This document shows positions 29,801 through 52,712 of a stretch of 64,000 nucleotides of DNA, one piece after another; the first letter of the stretch is position 1, and each line of letters opens with the position of its first letter. Made by a program: the position numbers and the translations under genes. Origin of the DNA: Polytrichum commune. Its lineage: Eukaryota > Streptophyta > Polytrichopsida > Polytrichales > Polytrichaceae. The DNA lies in the NCBI GenBank assembly GCA_950295325.1, contig OX485803.1, positions 56,433,554 to 56,497,553 on the forward strand, in the 5' to 3' direction. The notes beneath the pieces are model-generated. The model was not told where the DNA came from, searched no databases, and worked only from the letters and a program-made list of their open reading frames with translations.

Positions 29801-29858
29801 CAAGAGATCACTTGGGCGATCAGGTTGTCAGTAGGTTTCATATTCTCATCTAGACAAT

Positions 29859-30566
29859 ATGGCAATGGGACACACAATTCGGATGACAGAAGTTCATTCG
29901 TGGGTAACTGGGGCGGTGCTTCTAGTCCTGACAATCAATTTGGCCGTGATCAAACCCACGATGGCTAACGACCCCGACCCACTGCAGGACTTTTGTGTCG
30001 CGAAGAATAAGACGACGGCCGGCGACCCGACCATCAACGGCGCGGTGTGCAAACCGATTGCCGAAGTGACCGTGTCGGATTTCAAGTCGGCTTTCCTCAA
30101 GAACGTCGGCAGCACCAGCAACACCGAGAAGGTGAGTGTGTTAGCCGCGAACGTCGAGAAGTTCCCGGCCGTCAACACACAAGGCATTTCAATGGTGCGC
30201 ATCGACTGGGCCAAAGGGGGCATCAACCCCCCTCACGTGCACCCGCGGGCCACCGAGATTCTGTTCCTCGTCGAGGGCAGCTTGTACGTGGGGTTCATCA
30301 GCACCACCAACAACACGCTCTTTGCAACCTACTTGCAGAAGGGCGAGCTGTTCATCTTCCCCCGTGGACTCATCCATTTCCAGCTCAATGTTGGCAAGAG
30401 CAACGCGTTTGCAATTTCCGCGCTCAATAGCCAGAACTTTGGTACGTCGCAGGTCGCAGCTGCCTTGTTCACGCCCACCAATCTTGATGACCAAGTGCTC
30501 ACAAAGGGCTTCCGAACCACCGAGGAGATCGTGGATACCATCCAGAAAGGTTTTCAACCCAAATGA
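29859..30566 (+). CDS. Germin-like protein (secreted cupin), intact and intronless
   Basis: A 235-residue cupin of the germin-like family: secreted, apoplastic, manganese-binding, forming oligomers; members act as oxalate oxidase, superoxide dismutase or with no known enzyme activity. The hydrophobic signal segment (about residues 13-36) precedes a likely cleavage after TMA, giving NDPDPLQDFC. The conserved cysteine pair is Cys46/Cys64. Germin box 1 (HVHPRATE) supplies His126, His128 and Glu133; box 2 (GELFIFPRGLIHFQLNVG) supplies His173. All four metal ligands are present. Length is slightly above the usual 210-230 because of the N terminus; the first ATG follows the TATA box. Whether it has oxalate oxidase activity cannot be told; most germin-like proteins lack it. 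A broken relative lies at 52027-52712 on the same strand. Confidence 0.95.
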   Translation: MAMGHTIRMTEVHSWVTGAVLLVLTINLAVIKPTMANDPDPLQDFCVAKNKTTAGDPTINGAVCKPIAEVTVSDFKSAFLKNVGSTSNTEKVSVLAANVEKFPAVNTQGISMVRIDWAKGGINPPHVHPRATEILFLVEGSLYVGFISTTNNTLFATYLQKGELFIFPRGLIHFQLNVGKSNAFAISALNSQNFGTSQVAAALFTPTNLDDQVLTKGFRTTEEIVDTIQKGFQPK

Positions 30567-37689: not shown

Positions 37690-37849
37690 GGGTTTTTTGT
37701 ACACCAACGTGAATGGGAGCCCGTTCCTCCATACTGTGTTCATGTTTGACCAAGCATCACTATTCGGGTACTTCCTTCCTCTTGGAAGGTGGGCTTCTTG
37801 AGCTTTTAAGAACGGACATTGCACCTATCGTCTAGGGGGGATTAATAGG

Positions 37850-38560
37850 GGGTTGTTTGTTTTCGAGCTTCCTTTTGTTTAATATTAGGTATGTGAGATA
37901 TTTAATGGCAATTTGGTGTAGGTGTTTCATAAGTGTTTTGATCTCGTTTTTGGGTATTTTAAGTTTTTCTAGGTCTATAATTCGTTGTTTGTGGATAGCT
38001 CCTCTAACACTTGTTGTGATGGTGACGAGGGGGTTGACTTGCTAGCCGGCTGCTCTTAGTGTTTGTATGAGTGGGTTGTATTTGGTGGCTTTTTCACTAT
38101 GCGTTGTATTTGGGAATTTGTCGTGGTAGTATGTGAATTCAATGAACTGTATGACATTTGATAAGGTTGGCGCTAGGGGGGGTTGGTTGTCCGTGGGAGT
38201 GCCTAGGACACATAGTATATTTGGTCTAAGTTTGGCTAGGCATATGCATGGTGAGGCGGGGCATGTGAATTTGAGTAGCCATTGTGGGACTTTATTGTCT
38301 TGTGGTCTAGAATTTTGGTTGCCCGCATTTATGAGTGTATAATATCTCGTGTGCTTTTTTGATTATAGTGTGTGTACAATTTGGTGCATTGCTTTATTAT
38401 GGCGTGCTATACGTAGGCCTTTTATGTGGGGGTTTGAGCATGTAGAGAGTAGGTGTGGCCATGTGTCTATGTTATTATTGGGGCATAGCATGCAATTTGG
38501 GTTTGAGAACAAGTTAGGCCAAAAGATGTTTATACGATGGTTACCCATGTATTGGGCATA
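37850..38560 (-). pseudogene. LINE: C-terminal Cys/His cluster and tail
   Basis: NCMLCPNNNIDTWPHLLSTC then RIARHNKAMHQIVH (38548-38363) gives a C-x2-C-x8-H-x4-C pattern, the zinc-binding end common in RNase H-bearing LINEs. Farther on are PRPQDNKVPQWLLKF-like, IQFIEFTYYHDKFPNTTHSE, NPLVTITTSVRGAIHK and LEKLKIPKNEI, a conserved-looking C terminus. Several stops occur. Confidence 0.65.
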
Positions 38561-38859
38561 GCGGAGTTTTAGAGTTTGTGTAATTTGTGTAATTTGGGCG
38601 TCTATGATCCCGGGGTTTTTCCATAATTGGTTGGAGAGTTTGTTGTTAATTTGGTCGTTGTTTGTTCATTTGTCTATGTATGTGAATTGGGATTGGGCTA
38701 ATATGAGTTCTTGGTTTTTGTGTTTCTTATTGATGTAAGTTTGTAGGTTGCGTATAGCACCCGTGTGGGTGCTTGTGGGGACTCTATTGAGCCAATATGG
38801 TGTAGTGTGTGCCGTATGTATCCTAGGGGTGTTGGTATGTTTGTCTAGTAGGGCTTTGT

Positions 38860-39725
38860 TGTTGGCTAGTTGGTCCACATTGTCGTTACCTGTTATGCAT
38901 GTATGTGCTCTGACTTTATGTTGTGATTTTGTGTGTGCACCATGTTATGTGGTTGACTATAGCGGATATGAATAGTTTGTCCGGGTGGTTGTGTTGGGAT
39001 GACGGGTGTCGTATGTGGTTATGTATTAGATATATGCTATTGAGGCTATCTATAAATATGTGTATGTCTTGCGTATTTTGTTGTGTATTCTAAATGGCTA
39101 TTAGGATAGTGTTTAGCTCCGCTCTAAGGATGTTTTGTAGACTTGTGAGTCTCTATGCAATTCGGAGGTTATTGGCAGGACAATAGACTCATGATCCCGA
39201 TGTGTTGCCTTTGCCATTTTCATCAGGGGGGATAAATGATCCATCTGTGTATATGCATTGTTGGAGCTTGAATTTGAGAGGGTGTGTATTGTAGAGTTCT
39301 AGTGGTAGGGGTTGTGTTTGGTGGTTATTGTCCGGATGGTTGTAGTTTGAGGCTGCATGCCATGGGGGGAATATTTCAATTTTTTTCCGGGGGGATGGGT
39401 GGGGGTCTTTTTGTGGGTGATTTTTCATTTTAATATTAGACAACTCTCGTATGTTGGTTTCTAGCGCATGGGGTGCTTGTGGGGTGTATGGGGGGTTTGG
39501 ATTTTGTATGCTTAGTATGGTAGTGTATTGGTTTTCTAATTGATGTAGGTATTTTGGCCATTCTGATGTGGGGTTGTATTGTATGGTGTCAGGTGGAATG
39601 GTTACTATTGTGTGTATTTCTGCGTGGGTGATGGTGAGGGGGTTCTCTTTGTGGTTGATTATGACAACGGTTTTGGTGTTGTGGTTTTCCTGGGCTGCCA
39701 TGAGGGCCCAATGGATTGATGTCAT
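38860..39725 (-). pseudogene. LINE: RNase H domain
   Basis: IYTDGSFIPP (YTDGS at 39237-39251) gives the first catalytic Asp; RAELNTILIAI gives the Glu; IFIDSLNSIYLI gives the second Asp; and RAHTCITGNDNVDQLANNKA (about 38861-38920) gives the final H-x-x-GN-[DE]-x-x-D-x-LA block. The D-E-D-D set is therefore traceable although stops interrupt it. RNase H removes the RNA strand during reverse transcription. Upstream (39725-39260) the frame carries HAEIHTIVTIPPDTIQYNPT and KYLHQLENQY, probably linker. Confidence 0.8.
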
Positions 39726-40087
39726 GGCAGTTTTAAGGTATGGGGGGTGGGCTAAACCAACGCTTGCCCATTTTGATGAGTGTGTGTGGCCCGTTGAGCC
39801 GAATATTATGTCCTAGTTGTGTGGGGAATTGTATTGTGTGATTGTTATTGGACACGTGAGGGGCGAGGAGTAATATGAGTGTGTTATATTATACGTTTCT
39901 ATTAAAGCTTGGAGGGTGGAGGGTTTGATGGTTATTATTTGGGTTATGTTTTTTTGGCTTTCTTTTCGGGAGTATTGTGACATACCTTTGGGTTAACCAT
40001 AAAATGCCCGCGGTGAAATCTTGTGGTGGGGGGGTTCAAGAAGTGTAGCATGGGATGTGTTTGTCTTTGGTTATATCTTTCCCATAG

Positions 40088-41235
40088 TCATTGTAACCTT
40101 GTGAGTGGTATGGTGAGGATATATGCTCCCATTGGGTTGTATATATTGGTTTCCATTCCTTGTATTTGTATGGTAGGTTTGGTAGTAGTAATATCTTTGT
40201 TTGGGTTGCATTCTTTAGTGATTAGTGTGAGGTTTGGGGCTATGATGGGCGGGCGGATAAATCTTTGGTCCTTGGATTGCCCAAAGTTTATACAAGAGTT
40301 GTATGTGGTGATGGTGTTTGTTTTTTGTTGGTGTCGCAAAAATTTGTGGAGTGTGAATATGTTATGATCAAGGGCGACATTATCATGATGGAGAAGTAGT
40401 GAGGCGTCTATCCATTTGATCGTGTTAACTAGGGGGTGCTCCATTGGCATAAGTAGTGTTGTTTTATGGCTTTTGCTCCCCATTTGTCCTTATATGTTGT
40501 AGTTTTGGCGTTTATTATGGTTTGTATTGGTTTTCCATTTGTGTGGTCCACTTGGTTACTAGTATTTATGGGTGGGGTGGGCATTGGTACTTGTTGTGGG
40601 GGAGGGTTGTAACACCATATTCGAAATTTTGGGAGATTTCCAGTCTCCCAATTTGATGACAGTTTAGGTGGAGTCGACCTAAAATGTACCCAAAATTTAC
40701 ATTTTAGGTCGACTCAACCTAAACTGTATTTTCCCAAAATCATGAAATTTTCCCAAAATTTTGAATATGGTGTTTTGTGGATTGTGGGTGGGTTATGTGG
40801 GAATAGTAGTTGAGCTTGTGCCAGGGCTTCCTTGATTAGTTTAAGGGTTGCTTTGAATTTTTGTTTAAACTCCTTAGGGGATAGGATTTGGTGTGTGTCT
40901 GGGTTTTGGATTTGGGTTAGGGCGGTGATAATGTACGTATGTAGCTTATTAAGATATTTTCTGGTGGTTTTTTTTTGGTCTTGGGAGAGTAAGGCGTAGC
41001 TTGCTATTTGCAGCCATGTACATTCTATTGTTGACTGCTTTATGGGGAAGTATTTGATGGTCGTATGGACATGGATTCCATATTCCCGTTCTAGTAGGTA
41101 TAGTGTGCAGGTTGTGGGTGATCTTACACACACATGGTATTTTAGGCGTGGGAGGTGGTATGATCCCCCATATTTGGCTGTGATGTATTTGGTTAGACCT
41201 TGGTAGATTTGGCCTAGTTGGCCTTGGTCATTAAG
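40088..41235 (-). pseudogene. LINE: linker between RT and RNase H
   Basis: Two open frames: 41133-40714 (REYGIHVHTTIKYFPIKQST, WLQIASYALLSQDQKK) and 40483-40088 (HPLVNTIKWIDASLLLHHDN, KSKDQ-like FGQSKDQRFI). They continue the LINE protein without a catalytic motif I can name. The first is cut at its 3' side by the foldback element at 40611-40774. Confidence 0.55.
40611..40774. mobile_element. 164-bp foldback element in the LINE
   Basis: The left end AACACCATATTCGAAATTTT and right end AAAATTTTGAATATGGTGTT are inverses, and inner parts (CAGTTTAGGTGGAGTCGACC versus GGTCGACTCAACCTAAACTG) also pair, giving arms of about 75-80 nt around CCAAAATTT. TTGT flanks each side (40607-40610, 40775-40778). 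It lies in the LINE linker region and is therefore younger. Confidence 0.8.
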
Positions 41236-41239
41236 GGCG

Positions 41240-41536
41240 GACGTTAATAAGCAATTGACTGGATTAACTTACGAAATATTACGAAGTCAATTGCTTATTT
41301 ACTCAATGGAATTGAACATAAATATTGGATCTGGGACCTTGAAAATGAAGTGCATTCAATATGGGATTTGTGGATAAGTGGCCTTCAAGAATGCAAGGAC
41401 AATATTTTTTTTCCGAAGTCAGGCGGGCGGGCAACAATTTTCGGTCGGGTTCATAAAATCTAACGAGCAGCTGCCCTTGCCCGAATATTCCTCCCCCGAA
41501 AAGTTCGTTGGGGGGGAGGGGAACTTAACATCCACC
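41240..41536. mobile_element. 297-bp insertion in the LINE with 13-bp flanking repeats
   Basis: Flanked by GTCATTAAGGGCG at 41227-41239 and again at 41537-41549. The left part holds a small hairpin (TAAGCAATTGACT ... AGTCAATTGCTTA). Ends GACGTTAATAAG and CTTAACATCC are weakly inverse. The family is unclear: duplication this long points to target-primed insertion or a MULE-like element with extra matching bases. Confidence 0.65.
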
Positions 41537-41557
41537 GTCATTAAGGGCGTTGAGTAG

Positions 41558-43000
41558 TTACTTGCCAATACAATGGATGTAGTCAGGGAGGATGGAGGTG
41601 GTATTCATGCCAAAGTCTTCGTGGGAAAGGTGAGTTAGTGCATTCGTTGTGCTATTGGTTAGATTGCATATTTCTTTAGTGACTTTATTAAGGACTTTGT
41701 CTAATTTTTTGATGTCTGACTTAGAGAATGGGACTGCATAATATGCGTAGGCTATTCTTGGTTTGAGTACTGTATTTAGGATGTGGATCTTTTGTTTAAT
41801 TATGGTTGGAGATGCCATTAATAATTTACTTTGTTTTCTGGCTTTTTCCATGGTGATGTTTCTTTAGATGTTCCATTTTAGTGAGGGGACTAGATGGATG
41901 CCAAGATATCTATATGGTTCGTATCATGTCAAGGTGGGGAAGGGGTTATTCTTGAAGTGGATCTGGTGAGCCTGTATGTAGGCTTTGAAGAGAGTGGGTT
42001 TCAGGTTTGATTTATTGGGGCATCTTGTGATTGCGCATTTGGAGAGATTAAGGTCTATGTGTGCCCATTGTAAGAATTTTTGGAGTTTGGAAATTTGTGG
42101 TTGGATTTGTGTTATGTTATCGGTAAATATGGCTAGGTCATCAGCGTAGACTATGGTGTTACATGTAGTTGATGGTGTTTTAAAATGATAACCTATGTTG
42201 TCTTTCTCTAGCCATATGAGGAGTGGGTCTAGGAATATGATAAAGAGGTATGGACTTAGGGTGTCACCTTGGATGGTATCTCTGTTAATTAGTATGAGTG
42301 GGGTTATTCCGAAGTGGCTTCCATGGAAGGCGGTAGTTGAGTTTGTGTAGATATTGCCAATTAGGTCTACTGCATCACGGGGGTAACCGAGATCCTCCAT
42401 TATCGCAAGGAGTTTTGCATGATCTATGGATCCGAATGCATTTTTAAAGTCTATATAGATAGGTATATATCATTATTAGTTAGACGAGCATCTTCTAGTG
42501 CTGCTATGATCAATTGGATTTGTCTGGTGGTGTTTCTTTGTGGTCTGAAGCCTTCTTGATTGAAGTGTATTATTTTGTGTTTTTCACCGAAGCTTGTGAG
42601 GAGGGCAATGAGCGTACTAGTGTAGAGTTTATATGTAATGTTGGCCAATGCGATGGGTTTATAGTTGGTGATTAGTAGTGGGTCCATTTTTTTGTGGAGG
42701 AGTATTGTTTTACTATGTTTCTAGTATTGGGGTATATTTTTTTGGTGGTAACATTGCCGGAAGAAAAGAAACAACAAATCATGAAAGGGGGGGGGGGGAT
42801 GAAGGGCTTTGAGGATTTTGTTTGGGATGTTGTCCGGTCCTAGAGTTTTCCCTCTGGCTAACTTTTTAAGGCTATTGTCAAATACTTCACGGGTGAAGTT
42901 TTCCGATATACTAGGATCATGGGGGCCTCGTTTTTCAATGATGAATCCTTTTTGGTCCAACCATAGGTGGTTCCGGACTGCACATTGGTAGGTTGTAGGG
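41558..43000 (-). pseudogene. LINE: reverse transcriptase domain
   Basis: Broken frames carry the RT motifs in order: KKLARGKTLGPDNIPNKILK, then YKPIALANITYKLYTSTLIA and QEGFRPQRNT, then GYPRDAVDLIGNIY and DTIQGDTLSPYLFIIFLDPL, then IVYADDLAIFTDNI (YADDLAIF at 42125-42148), LSKCAIT, and a thumb region with LNTVLKPRIAYAYYAVPFSK. Both catalytic aspartates of YADD and the upstream palm residues are visible, but a 12-base poly-C tract (42787-42798), stops and frameshifts prevent a continuous protein. Confidence 0.9.
42787..42798 (+). repeat. Homopolymer tract of 12 G
   Basis: Within the LINE; codes for proline on the LINE sense strand. Similar tracts: 45703-45721 (19 G) and 45862-45873 (12 G). 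Confidence 0.9.
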
Positions 43001-43451
43001 TGGTCAGTGGGGTCCTCGCACAGAGGGACTTTCTTATTAAAGGACTTTTGTTGTGTTTTTAGGATTTCTTGATTTATGTCTATTGGGTTTGTGAGGGTGT
43101 TGTCATTTGTATCTTTGAGGCAATCTAGGGATATATTTGTAGATGGTTTAAATATTCTTTTATGTATATTTTTGGGTTCAGTGTTTAGTAGGAGCCTATA
43201 TTTTGTAATGGCTTTCTTACAGTTGATGGCAGTTTGTTTGGTGGTAATCTTGTGGGCTTCTATTTTTGCTAGGCGTCCTGTAGCAGCGAACTCTTCAATC
43301 CATTTTTTTTACCATTGTGTCATTAGTGGGGGTGGGGGGGACAACCATATTTTTTTAATGTGTATAATTGTTGTATATCCGGGTGGTTTGGCCAGTTTGC
43401 GCGTGGTATGGAGTATGTTGTGTGTATGGCTTTTCTAGTGCTATGGTAGGT

Positions 43452-44890
43452 CTAGAGGTGACGTTTCCACAATTTCTGTTGTTTACTTGGGAGGAAGCCT
43501 CCTTGTTGGCGGGCCCTGTGCGGTAGTGTATTGGGGGTTTGTGTGTTAAGACATGTTTCTTCTTGGGCTTCAACCCATTCTGTGTGGTGGAGATGTGACG
43601 TGTACATTTTTTGGGTGAGAGTTTGTATGGCAAGGTTGGTGGTTTCTTGAAATTGGATGAGTATTTTTTGGATTCTTTCTAGTTGTATGGGGTATGTGAT
43701 TCTTGGGGTGTATCTATCAGGGTTGTCTATATTCTGGGCAAGTGTGTTGTGACCTAGATCTAGTCTGATGGGATAGTGATCTGAATTTTGATTTTGGTGG
43801 AGCAGGGTTGTGCATGTTATGTGTGCGTGGGTTGGCATGTTAGTATAGAATCCATCGATGAGGTTGGTGGACTAGTAGTTGTGTCCACCTTGTCGGGATA
43901 AAGTTTCAGTGTTTTGGATTGGGTGCAGGGTTAGGGTTTGCATACAACATGCCCATTCCCTATTTTCACGGGTGGGGGCTTGGGGTGTGCCATTGTGGGT
44001 ATGTCCTTGTAGGAGATGTCTTTGTTAAAATCGCATGCTAATATGGTTTTGTGTGTAGGGTAGTGTTTTGTTAGGATGGTGATTTGGGCTATAATATCGG
44101 GTATGAGGTTTATGTTGTGTGAGTGTGATGGCATGTATATATTCAAAATGAGGAGTGGTGTTAGTGGTTTGTTGGTTATTTTGAAAGCTTGTAAGTAGGG
44201 TGAGATACAGGTTGGTGTGGGGATTTTGGTTATGTTCTCAGAGGTGTGGATTTTTTGGTGGATCATGGCTAGTACTCCTTTGCAGGGGGACTCGTTTGTG
44301 GCATATTGGTGGTTTGTTCCTGAATTTATACTGTTGGTGTTATTGTATAATCTCGGGGGGGGGGGGGGTAGTCATTGGTTGGAGTAGCAATATACGTGCG
44401 AACAAATGATAGGGTATTTTAAAAACATGGGGACAAAAAATTATAAATGGACTTAAGAGTAATATAGGGTATCAAAATTGGCACTGGACATCTTTAAAGT
44501 ACTATAGGGTATGGAATAATAGGTAATTTGGAATTATAAGTAATGCAAGCCATTTTTCTATTAACCCAAAGTAGAAAATTTTACAATGATAGCATGTGAA
44601 ATTTTTTTTTGAAAGTAATACCCCCTATAAAATAGTGGTTGTTCGCACCTATATCCTTAACTTTTTAACACACTGCCCCCCCCCCCCCCCCCGAGTGTAT
44701 AATATTTTGTAATTTGGAAACTTGTTGTCTATATACGTGGTTGATTTATTTTTGGTTACTTTAGTATCCTGTAGTAGAATGATGTGGGATTTGTTGTGCA
44801 AGGTGTTTATAAGTTCTATAATGCTTGGTAGGTTGGAGCTAATGTGTCCCATATTCCATGTGATAATGTGGGTGTTGGTGTTGTGGGTGT
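43452..44890 (-). pseudogene. LINE: APE-type endonuclease domain (interrupted)
   Basis: Pieces in order: HIITWNMGHISSNLPSIIEL and HIILLQDTKV (about 44890-44700), then after the MITE at 44352-44695 the block LTPLLILNIYMPSHSHNI with ILACDFNKDI (44266-43931), then SDHYPIRLDLGHN (about 43838-43740). These are the N-terminal Asn, the Q-[ED]-T-K motif (Asp here instead of Glu), the central D-F-N motif and the C-terminal S-D-H of AP-endonuclease-like LINE nucleases, which nick target DNA to prime reverse transcription. Frames shift between pieces. Long poly-C tracts interrupt the coding strand. Confidence 0.8.
44352..44695. mobile_element. hAT-type MITE with poly-G terminal repeats, inside the LINE
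   Basis: Begins CTC followed by 14 G (44355-44368) and ends with 17 C (44676-44692) followed by GAG, so its termini are inverse poly-G tracts. Further in, ATATACGTGCGAACAA on the left pairs with ATATAGGTGCGAACAA read from the right. Perfect 8-bp duplications TGTATAAT flank it (44344-44351 and 44696-44703). It splits the LINE endonuclease, so it is younger than the LINE. Length 344 bp. Confidence 0.85.
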
Positions 44891-45251
44891 CTGTGCGTTG
44901 TGGTTGTGGAGGTTGGTCGTATGTTTGGTTTGGGGTGGGTGTAAATCATGTGACCTGGTGGGTGCGCTTGGCAATGTTTTGAAGGAGTTGTTTAGGTACT
45001 AAGGGGAAGTGTTGTTCTAGGTTTTGTTGGGTGACGGGTTCCCCTTGGGCAATTTTTTGGTTGATATGTGCGTGTATAGGTATTGTTAAGGGGGTTTCTA
45101 ATGTGTGAGTGTTGAGTATTTGTGACAGGAGTTGGGGTTCTGTAGGTTGGTGTGGTTCACTGTTTTGGAGTCTTCGTAGTGGTGAGACATCGGGGGTCGA
45201 GATGTTTGGAAAGTTGGTCATTACATTGGTTGGGCATAGGGCTGAGGGCAA

Positions 45252-45593
45252 TTATAGAGGCATACAACTTGTAGTGTGGGGGTATCTTGAGAGTAATAGG
45301 TTATGTCTTCGGAGATGTGGTAGGGTTTTATGTTGGTTGGTTGAGGTGTATTGTTCCAAGTATGGGGCAAATTGTTCCGCTAGGTGTTGATATTGAGGTT
45401 TTAGTTCTAGGGTATGTGCTATAAAGTATTGTTTTTGTCTTTGTGTGAAAGCTTTTGGGAGGTTATTAAGGATTTGTGTGAGTGGTCCGGGGTTGGGTTG
45501 TATGTCCCCAATAAGGAGTATAAGTGTTTGGAGGTCGATAATGTGTGAGGTAGTTTGTGGTATGTTGGCTTTTTGAGGTGAGGACGTTTTATT
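45252..45593 (-). pseudogene. LINE: 5' coding segment with 2A-like motif
   Basis: A frame open for 113 codons between TAA stops contains LILLIGDIQPNPGP, then QRQKQYFIAHTLELKPQYQH, then LRRHNLLLSRYPHT. No Met starts it, so the 5' end of the original ORF has been lost or shifted. The protein apparently continues in another frame (about 45251-44946, with LALCP-like start and QHFPLVPKQLLQNIAKR) toward the endonuclease. Function of this segment in the intact element is unknown; in other LINEs a 2A near the N terminus separates a short leader from the main protein. Confidence 0.65.
45483..45509 (-). other. 2A-like ribosome-skipping motif (GDIQPNPGP)
   Basis: Codons read GDIQPNPGP, preceded by a hydrophobic LQTLILLI. 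Active 2A sequences follow D-[VI]-E-x-N-P-G-P; here Gln replaces the usual Glu, so activity is uncertain. Such motifs are known at the N termini of some animal and trypanosome LINE proteins. Confidence 0.7.
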
Positions 45594-45702
45594 TTATAGA
45601 AGGTGATTGAGATGATGTTGGTGTGGTGTATGTGATTATTTTCTAGTAGGTGGTTGTGTGGTGTGGATGGGGGTTGGAATGTTGGGGGTATGTGTGGGGT
45701 TT

Positions 45703-45721
45703 GGGGGGGGGGGGGGGGGGG
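45703..45721 (+). repeat. Homopolymer tract of 19 G
   Basis: Longest G run in the window, in the LINE 5' region, with several shorter G runs nearby. G-quadruplex-capable; its exact length is likely to be uncertain in any assembly. Confidence 0.85.
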
Positions 45722-46120
45722 AACGTTGATGTGCCTATGTCATGGTTTTTTAGTATGTCTCTTTGTATGAGGGGTAGTTCCTTATTTTGTGGGGTTGTGG
45801 CGTTGATTCCGATGTGGAGGGTGGGTATGTTGGTCCACGAGGGGTTTGTTTGCTTGCTACCGGGGGGGGGGGGTAGTTAATTAGTAGGTATGTGAGGCTT
45901 AATATTATGAGTGTATGCTTTGAGGGTGGTTTTTTTGTGGTAGTTTAGTGAGGGCTTTGTATTTGGGTTTTTTTTGGTGTGGGTATTCCCTGGTTCACTT
46001 TTGTATAGTGTGTTGCATTTGTGTCTTGTTTGTTTGGCTGTGTTGCCCTTTTCGTGGCCTGCTCGGTGCCGCTTGTGAGCTCTGCCATCGCTATGGTAAA
46101 ATCTTTTGTATCCGTTAGGA

Positions 46121-52026: not shown

Positions 52027-52712
52027 ATGGCAATGGCCAACTCACAGGGTACTAACCGTGGCTGCGGTGCTCACCTTGGTGGTATTTGGTTTCACCACCA
52101 CGATTAAAACAACCATGGCCGCCCATGGCTGCCGACCCGGACCCTGAGCAGGACTTCTGCGTTGCGAAGGCAAACTCAGAACCAACAATCAACGGTGTGA
52201 TTTGCAAGCCCATGAATGAGGTAGTGGCCTCCGATTTCTTGTCTTCCATGTTGAAGAACGCGGGCAACACCAACAATGCCAACAAGGTGAGTGTCACGCC
52301 CGCGAATGTGGGCGTGTTCCCGGGCATCAGCACACAGGGCATTTCATTTGTGCGCATTGACTGGGCCCAAGGGGGCATCAATCCGCCTCATGTGCACCCG
52401 AGGGCCACTGAGATTTTGTTCCTCGTTGGGGGCAGCTTGTACGTTGGGTTCATTACCAGCAATGGCAACAACACGCTCTTTGCGACGTACATGCAGAAGG
52501 GTGACTTGTTTGTGTTTCCCCGCGGACTCATCCACTTCCAGCTCAACGTCGGAAAGGGCATTGCTATCTCCGGGCTCAACAGCCAGAACCTGGGGGTGTC
52601 TGCAGTAGCAGCCGCCTTGTTCAGCCCCAACGGCATCAAGGAGGAGGTCCTCAAGAAGGACTTCTGAACTACCAAGCAAGTGGTGGATACCATTGAGAAT
52701 GGGTTCAAATGA
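52027..52712 (+). pseudogene. Germin-like protein pseudogene
   Basis: The cupin core is well preserved: DPDPEQDFCVAK, INPPHVHPRATEILFL, DLFVFPRGLIHFQLNVG, with all four metal ligands. The start is broken. The ATG at 52027 is out of frame with a hydrophobic signal-like stretch (RVLTVAAVLTLVVFGF), which is again out of frame with the mature part. The second shift comes from a 10-bp imperfect duplication (ATGGCCGCCC followed by ATGGCTGCCG at 52115-52134). Near the end, the codon that is CGA in the intact gene is TGA (52665-52667); past it the frame stays open to the ancestral stop at 52710-52712. It could still give an unsecreted, shortened cupin from the ATG at 52125, but loss of the signal peptide makes normal function unlikely. 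Confidence 0.85.

Follow-up and report, generated by a model that had tools for sequence, protein, structure and literature searches.

A minus-strand reading frame in a 64,000-nucleotide stretch of Polytrichum commune DNA (the window) raises the question of whether LINEs of a land plant carry a 2A peptide, and whether an altered residue in this copy reflects decay. An earlier note on this DNA had recognized, at the N-terminal side of a plant LINE protein, a hydrophobic run followed by G-D-[IV]-x-x-NPGP, the layout of 2A and 2A-like peptides. Our analysis makes it probable that the site is a fossil StopGo/2A peptide in ORF2 of a moss LINE clade, in which ORF2 would skip at one to three sites.

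The window copy and its host genome

On the minus strand, positions 45593..45252 form a 113-codon stop-to-stop frame whose translation includes DLQTLILLIGDIQPNPGPLTQILNN. The nine core residues, GDIQPNPGP, lie at 45509..45483 (the same site as C1:56479037-56479062), and a stop codon is reached 76 codons past the core, confirming the motif that the earlier note had read in this frame. The layout was also as it had described: the core is preceded by the run IIDLQTLILLI, and relatives share the corresponding heads (TWNNSTLILL or DLQTLILL). When the window was compared by tblastn with ORF2 of an intact relative, L009 (2422 codons), residues 166-2422 mapped to 45527..37835 (-) in ten pieces and several frames. 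By homology, the 113-codon frame belongs to a LINE ORF2. The copy itself, at about 45.6-37.8 kb, is dead, because its ORF2 lies in many frames and its RT is split over 42720..41924. The features of the window were as follows, with Pfam limits of the endonuclease (EN) on L009 at residues 387-631:

45483-45509, minus strand: 2A-like core GDIQPNPGP, expected skip between the last G and P (translation, pattern search)
45483-45542, minus strand: 2A-like region, hydrophobic run IIDLQTLILLI plus core (translation; homologous to the relatives' heads)
45252-45593, minus strand: residual open frame of 113 amino acids, 2A-like site and start of the post-2A domain (translation; at least 153 genome matches)
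44682-45527, minus strand: broken remnant of 2A site, post-2A domain and first part of EN, L009 ORF2 residues 166-447 (tblastn)
43329-44350, minus strand: remnant of the rest of the APE-type endonuclease and linker to RT, L009 residues 441-790 (tblastn)
41924-42720, minus strand: RT remnant in two frames (PF00078; Pfam E 8.2e-6, below cut-off, and 2.4e-20)
39781-40032, minus strand: remnant of a PCIF1_WW-like region between RT and RNase H (homology to L009)
37835-39932, minus strand: RNase H and C-terminal remnant, L009 residues 1718-2422 (homology to L009)
29835-30566, plus strand: germin-like (cupin) frame (searched against solved structures)
52056-52667, plus strand: second germin-like (cupin) frame (by eye)

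Searched directly, the window piece gave a weak RNase_H match (E 0.1). A strong GC skew (0.36-0.56, in 2-kb steps) over positions 38001-46000 marks the LINE, whose coding strand is rich in C and A and poor in G and T. Rfam at the gathering threshold gave no match in the window, and ARAGORN found no tRNA there.

A search of the genome with the 113-residue block, in which 150 of 718 candidates were scored, gave at least 153 matches, many of them in open frames of 1000-2400 codons. The eight best (L001-L008) are the window copy itself, L001, and the seven relatives nearest to it. GDIQPNPGP is intact in five of these eight, and three have damaged cores (GNIQPSPGP, GDIQPNSIP and GDVHPNLGP); this damage within the window's own subfamily concerns dead copies. 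The residue before x-N is Gln in seven and His in one. The earlier note had offered two accounts of Gln in place of Glu, decay of this copy or an altered, possibly inactive variant. The first did not hold up, because seven of the eight best-matching copies and 76 of 432 genome sites have Gln; Gln sites also occur in long open frames (L010, L014, L016, L018 and L023). Gln before x-NPGP is a subfamily state, and it may still make for a weaker site.

The genome searched comprised 407.8 Mb in 64 contigs from one species; seven contigs measure 42-78 Mb and would fit seven chromosomes. Two findings support the earlier note's assignment to a plant LINE: the window holds a germin-like gene, and the genome has LEAFY genes. 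The best solved relative of the first germin-like frame is named oxalate oxidase 1 (E 1.5e-44), and the two germin-like frames flank the LINE. The LEAFY domain model had four genome matches, one of which, a DNA-binding exon (L054), reads LDYLFDLYEQC and best matches 4bhk, presumably Physcomitrium LEAFY; we take the Asp in this exon to be typical of mosses.

Genome-wide, GD[IVM]xxNPGP matched 432 sites in 408 Mb and GD[IVM][E/Q]xNPGP matched 337, both being pattern matches that do not imply coding for each one, and the reversed pattern matched none in either case or in any of the four genome pattern searches. The strongly C- and A-rich coding strand brings to mind chance resemblance in biased sequence; we rejected it as scarcely credible, given 432 and 337 sites against 0 for the reversed patterns and the codon-level constraint described below. 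The GD[IVM]xxNPGP sites are present on all seven large contigs, and 94 sites on contig C1 form 80 clusters when those on the same strand are joined across gaps of up to 1,500 bases. Non-viral 2A sites have been reported from animals and trypanosomes in the accessible text of PMC4981915 and PMC11512398, and the LINEs might on that account be contamination or a foreign element in the assembly. This seems very improbable: the sites occur on every large contig, the copies are variously decayed, and plant-type germin-like genes are found 7 kb from the window copy. Scans of contigs from viruses and prokaryotes, seeded by pattern, found no relatives.

The site in copies chosen by their endonuclease

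Relatives with long open frames show how these LINEs are built. In 9.9-kb regions, L009, L010 and L012 have an ORF1 frame upstream of an ORF2 frame of 2372-2422 codons, and L011 has an ORF2 frame of 2131 codons; Pfam gave no match on L012 ORF1. The ORF2 frames of L009 and L053 both carry EN, RT, a PCIF1_WW-like region and RNase H. In L009 the APE endonuclease and RT share one ORF, with PF03372, PF14529 and PF00078 over cut-off, and the EN of L053 falls below its Pfam cut-off (19.6 versus 24.5 bits). Against solved structures only, the RT matched R2 chains (8.3e-29) and chain 8c8j (7.4e-16), which we take to be human L1 RT. The PCIF1_WW match sits between RT and RNase H, at residues 1684-1770 of L009 ORF2 and 1871-1964 of the L053 ORF2 frame, and scored 33.2 bits in L053, over the cut-off of 31.1, and 26.7 in L009, below it. 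PCIF1_WW is cap-adenine methyltransferase-like, with NPPF as the catalytic motif. NPPF is absent from the L053 ORF2 frame, and the region is therefore probably an enzyme domain that is no longer active; among solved structures, none of PCIF1 matched it.

We then assembled a set of copies without using the motif for their choice. The EN search gave 151 matches, from which we took the listed ones that were free of stops and lay in open frames of 1000 codons or more. The search showed two families, I (56-100% identity to L009) and II (about 45-49%), and the resulting 35 copies comprised 18 of family I and 17 of family II, not all of them independent, since L037/L038 and L051/L052 are identical pairs. 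Four family II copies (L045, L047, L050 and L053) share 99.2-99.5% identity with L043 over 1.8 kb, and L010 and L012 are 99.3% identical over 9.8 kb, which points to recent copying of these LINEs.

The earlier note had raised the possibility that other copies lack the motif or carry it out of frame with the endonuclease. A 2A site precedes EN in all 35 EN-selected copies, 210-225 codons ahead; the distance is 212 codons in L009 and 225 in the majority of family II copies. In 33 of the 35 the last site has NPGP at its end, the exceptions being L013 (NPGA) and L039 (NLGP), and in 32 it lies in the EN frame with no stop between. The three others (L033, L034 and L036) have a frameshift between motif and EN; L035 has one inside EN, and in L048 and L049 the main EN matches (1-258) are in the motif frame. 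The core D[IV]ExNPGP is fully canonical in 21 of the 35 last sites.

Position 14 of the last site is Glu in 22 copies, His in five, Gln in four and Lys in four (L019, L033, L039 and L048); the Lys sites are probably inactive, yet three of the four are nevertheless in the EN frame. Over the 432 genome sites, position 14 is Glu in 261, Gln in 76, His in 69 and another residue in 26. Altered sites elsewhere include NPGS in L029 and one GAIHTNPGP unit in L017. The StopGo core is given as (D/G/C/N)(V/I)ExNPGP in the accessible part of PMC12846837, where a His-14 variant is >95% active in its native context and earlier studies are cited for an E14Q mutant as 26 or 56% active. The strict core D(V/I)ExNPGP, like this expanded one, occurs in the family, and the window copy with its Gln does not match the strict core. 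By analogy, Glu and His units would fit published StopGo and Gln units may be leaky. A rather unlikely alternative, though one to be taken seriously, is that StopGo is ancestral here and many sites are now weakened (Gln, Lys, NPGA), giving a mixture of fused and split products or fused product only. The E14Q activities agree with it, as do the 76 Gln and 26 other residues among the 171 of 432 sites without Glu. Glu and His together account for 330 of the 432, however, and the young family II copies, 99% identical, carry the canonical GDIEPNPGP.

A search with PF03372 gave 133 matches, including 17 loci outside the 35 that likewise were stop-free in open frames of 1000 codons or more; these were divided by presence of the site after looking. 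Twelve (L056-L067) have no 2A site in the 1,200 bases before EN, where a single stray N[PA]G[PAS] was found in six frames, in L064. Five of the twelve, those with a long enough frame, have a different sequence (LGQGF) before EN. The site-free loci may be plant L1. The other five of the 17 (L024 and L068-L071) have the site, in the EN frame in L068-L070. L068 (G000:C1:40944481 EN locus) is a related element with a 2919-codon open frame and one in-frame GDIETNPGP. Since twelve EN loci lack the site, the 2A feature, judged from these sequences, marks one LINE clade in this genome.

Tandem sites, reading frame and constraint

The number of sites per copy ranges from one to three, in one frame. Two or three share one open frame in 11 of 45 copies (L010, L011, L013, L014, L016, L017, L018, L020, L022, L026 and L027 among L009-L053); L012 has two sites in different frames, and L070 is a further copy with multiple in-frame sites. 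Of the 80 clusters on C1, ten have two sites and two have three, and 13 of 14 neighbour spacings are multiples of 3, some of them recurring in related copies. In a tree of units, family II-type units (MPDIL...) fall inside the family I elements L014 and L017, and L070 consists of a family I-like and a family II-like unit; cassettes have therefore moved between the families. The N-terminal module of ORF2 (MNRxxxGYHKW...) is repeated within ORF2 in L023 (nt 1160 and 1727), L019 and L033 (nt 548), so the duplication takes in more than the 2A unit.

The frame upstream of the site is open. Over the 150 codons before the first site in 44 copies (L009-L053 minus L033), there are 11 stops in the 2A frame versus 405 and 380 in the others, many loci having been picked for long frames, which lowers the 11. 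Some loci, and the 19 family I copies used below, were chosen through the 2A block or its open frame, a choice that makes conservation and openness look better.

The motif is the region of lowest pN/pS over the whole families (0.18-0.19). In family II (11 of 17 copies, six near-duplicates left out), pN/pS is 0.79 far upstream, 0.47 in the 40 columns before the motif, 0.19 in the motif, and 0.32 and 0.38 downstream. In family I, the corresponding values are 0.83, 0.61, 0.18, and 0.49 and 0.54, from 19 copies chosen by a relaxed motif and hence biased at the motif. The subgroup L016/L022/L026/L027 has a motif without any change; in the family I subgroup L013/L015/L020/L025/L031, the motif has 0.35 and the stretch just downstream 0.14. 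Inside the motif, synonymous variation extends to four codons for the first Gly, two for Asp, two for Asn and three for the first Pro. Constraint far upstream is weak (about 0.8), and the released N-terminal piece may therefore do little.

Conservation extends into the flanks, with YYTWNNS before the core and NLPKEYTQRQKQYFI after it, and 25 of 28 TWNN-type heads (DLQ-type and family II heads left out) run into an exact GD[IVM]xxNPGP, the other three with one change each. These flanks, and Lys at position 14 in four of the 35 last sites, would suit an explanation in which NPGP is a structural turn in a folded ORF2 N-terminal domain, conserved for the fold and with no skipping. We regard this as distinctly unlikely: the constrained letters are those that StopGo requires, and the core is common to families I and II, in which much of the preceding run differs. 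In addition, extra 5' units compared with the last unit (11 pairs) kept 95% of the core and 44% identity in the post-2A module, a comparison biased towards the core, by which the units were found. A membrane-protein reading of the ORF2 N-terminus, considered because of its hydrophobic stretches (LICCIVFSLYNK), was rejected, as 11 of 12 copies had no segment (19-residue Kyte-Doolittle, cut-off 1.6).

The accessible text of PMC12846837 recognizes, as one class of upstream context, Leu-rich runs that end in (A/S/C)G ahead of Asp. By eye, some copies have such runs, including LLLLLCGDIETNPGP (L042) and LILLSGDIQLNPGP (L023); those ending in HG, GG and IG (L031, L014 and the window) lie outside this class.

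A proposed translation scheme and its known counterparts

The start of ORF2 suggests how ribosomes would reach the site. Among 17 family I places with an ORF2-start-like ATG, three of which (L023, L033 and L035) are internal module repeats, nine have the overlap ATGGATAG, where the ORF1 frame stops five bases after the ORF2 ATG (for example, L010 nt 2111 and L015 nt 1526); one of the nine reads ATGGTTAG instead. The upstream frame runs stop-free into ORF2 in L018, L020, L021 and L026, and L022 differs. Family II (L053) is without an ATG/stop overlap: its ORF1 stops at 2465, and the first in-frame ATG comes about 120 bases on, at 2591. The overlap makes coupled termination-reinitiation likely; a conceivable second route into ORF2 is frameshifting in the C-rich stretch immediately ahead of the overlap.

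We propose that ORF2 of family I starts at the ATG overlapping the ORF1 stop and would be reached by reinitiation. The ribosome would make an N-terminal piece rich in Thr, His, Pro and Ile, predicted at 171-297 residues in the 12 copies measured. At LILL-x-G-D-[IV]-[E/H/Q]-x-N-P-G-P it would skip the Gly-Pro bond, release the piece and continue, and in arrays the skip would be repeated at a second or third site. The last product would begin with Pro, followed by the conserved post-2A domain, EN, RT and RNase H. Bond skipping, its efficiency per site, reinitiation and any role of the released pieces are inferences from sequence. More tentatively, and with somewhat less than even confidence, we suggest a modular polyprotein device of one to three cassettes, duplicated and swapped, in which position 14 (E, H, Q or K) would set the efficiency of each site, giving a graded series of up to four products by way of coupled reinitiation.

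Such a device, if real, would be the first array of natural StopGo sites in any plant genome, and hundreds of sites in a moss LINE clade would place natural StopGo inside one. The 2026 survey, in its accessible part, finds no evidence of natural StopGo in plant viruses, though StopGo works in plants (PMC12846837). The native Glu, His, Gln and Lys units at position 14, among them GDIELNPGP (L015), GDIETNPGP (L042), GDIHPNPGP (L021), GDIQLNPGP (L023) and GDVKPNPGP (L019), would offer material for work with plant ribosomes, and the tandem in-frame sites raise the question of why several N-terminal pieces should be split from an endonuclease-RT protein. The spread of residues at position 14, the arrays and the ORF1 stop/ORF2 start overlap go beyond the earlier note, which had called the motif unfamiliar in plant LINEs. 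That impression stands insofar as a limited literature search found no plant LINE with 2A; it does not establish absence from print. The plant host and the tandem arrays look new.

The title of Odon 2013 (MBE 30:1955) claims recoding. The elements described there, as far as the accessible text goes, resemble the moss LINEs in combining an APE endonuclease and RT with an in-frame 2A-like site, and LINEs with 2A-like sites are on record in trypanosomes and animals (PMC4981915 and PMC11512398, in their accessible parts). The moss LINEs differ from the Odon elements in their land plant host and in having one to three sites per ORF2; their RNase H and PCIF1_WW-like region may be further differences. 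L1Tc of Trypanosoma cruzi (Heras et al. 2006) likewise has, by the available portion of that report, a 2A site in frame with its proteins; the host is unrelated, and the moss LINEs have tandem arrays and a separate ORF1, with an overlapping stop and start in family I. A counterpart of the arrays is found in the Paavivirinae picornaviruses, which in the accessible sections of PMC11512398 have several NPGP sites in one reading frame; the moss LINE is a retrotransposon that would work like these arrays and is not a member of that group. Among plant elements, the available part of a review lists only the L1 and RTE superfamilies of LINEs in land plants (PMC9033089), and placement of the clade therefore matters. 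Both are non-LTR elements, and L1 has ORF1 and an ORF2 with EN, RT and often RNase H; unlike either, the moss LINEs have a long 2A region ahead of EN.
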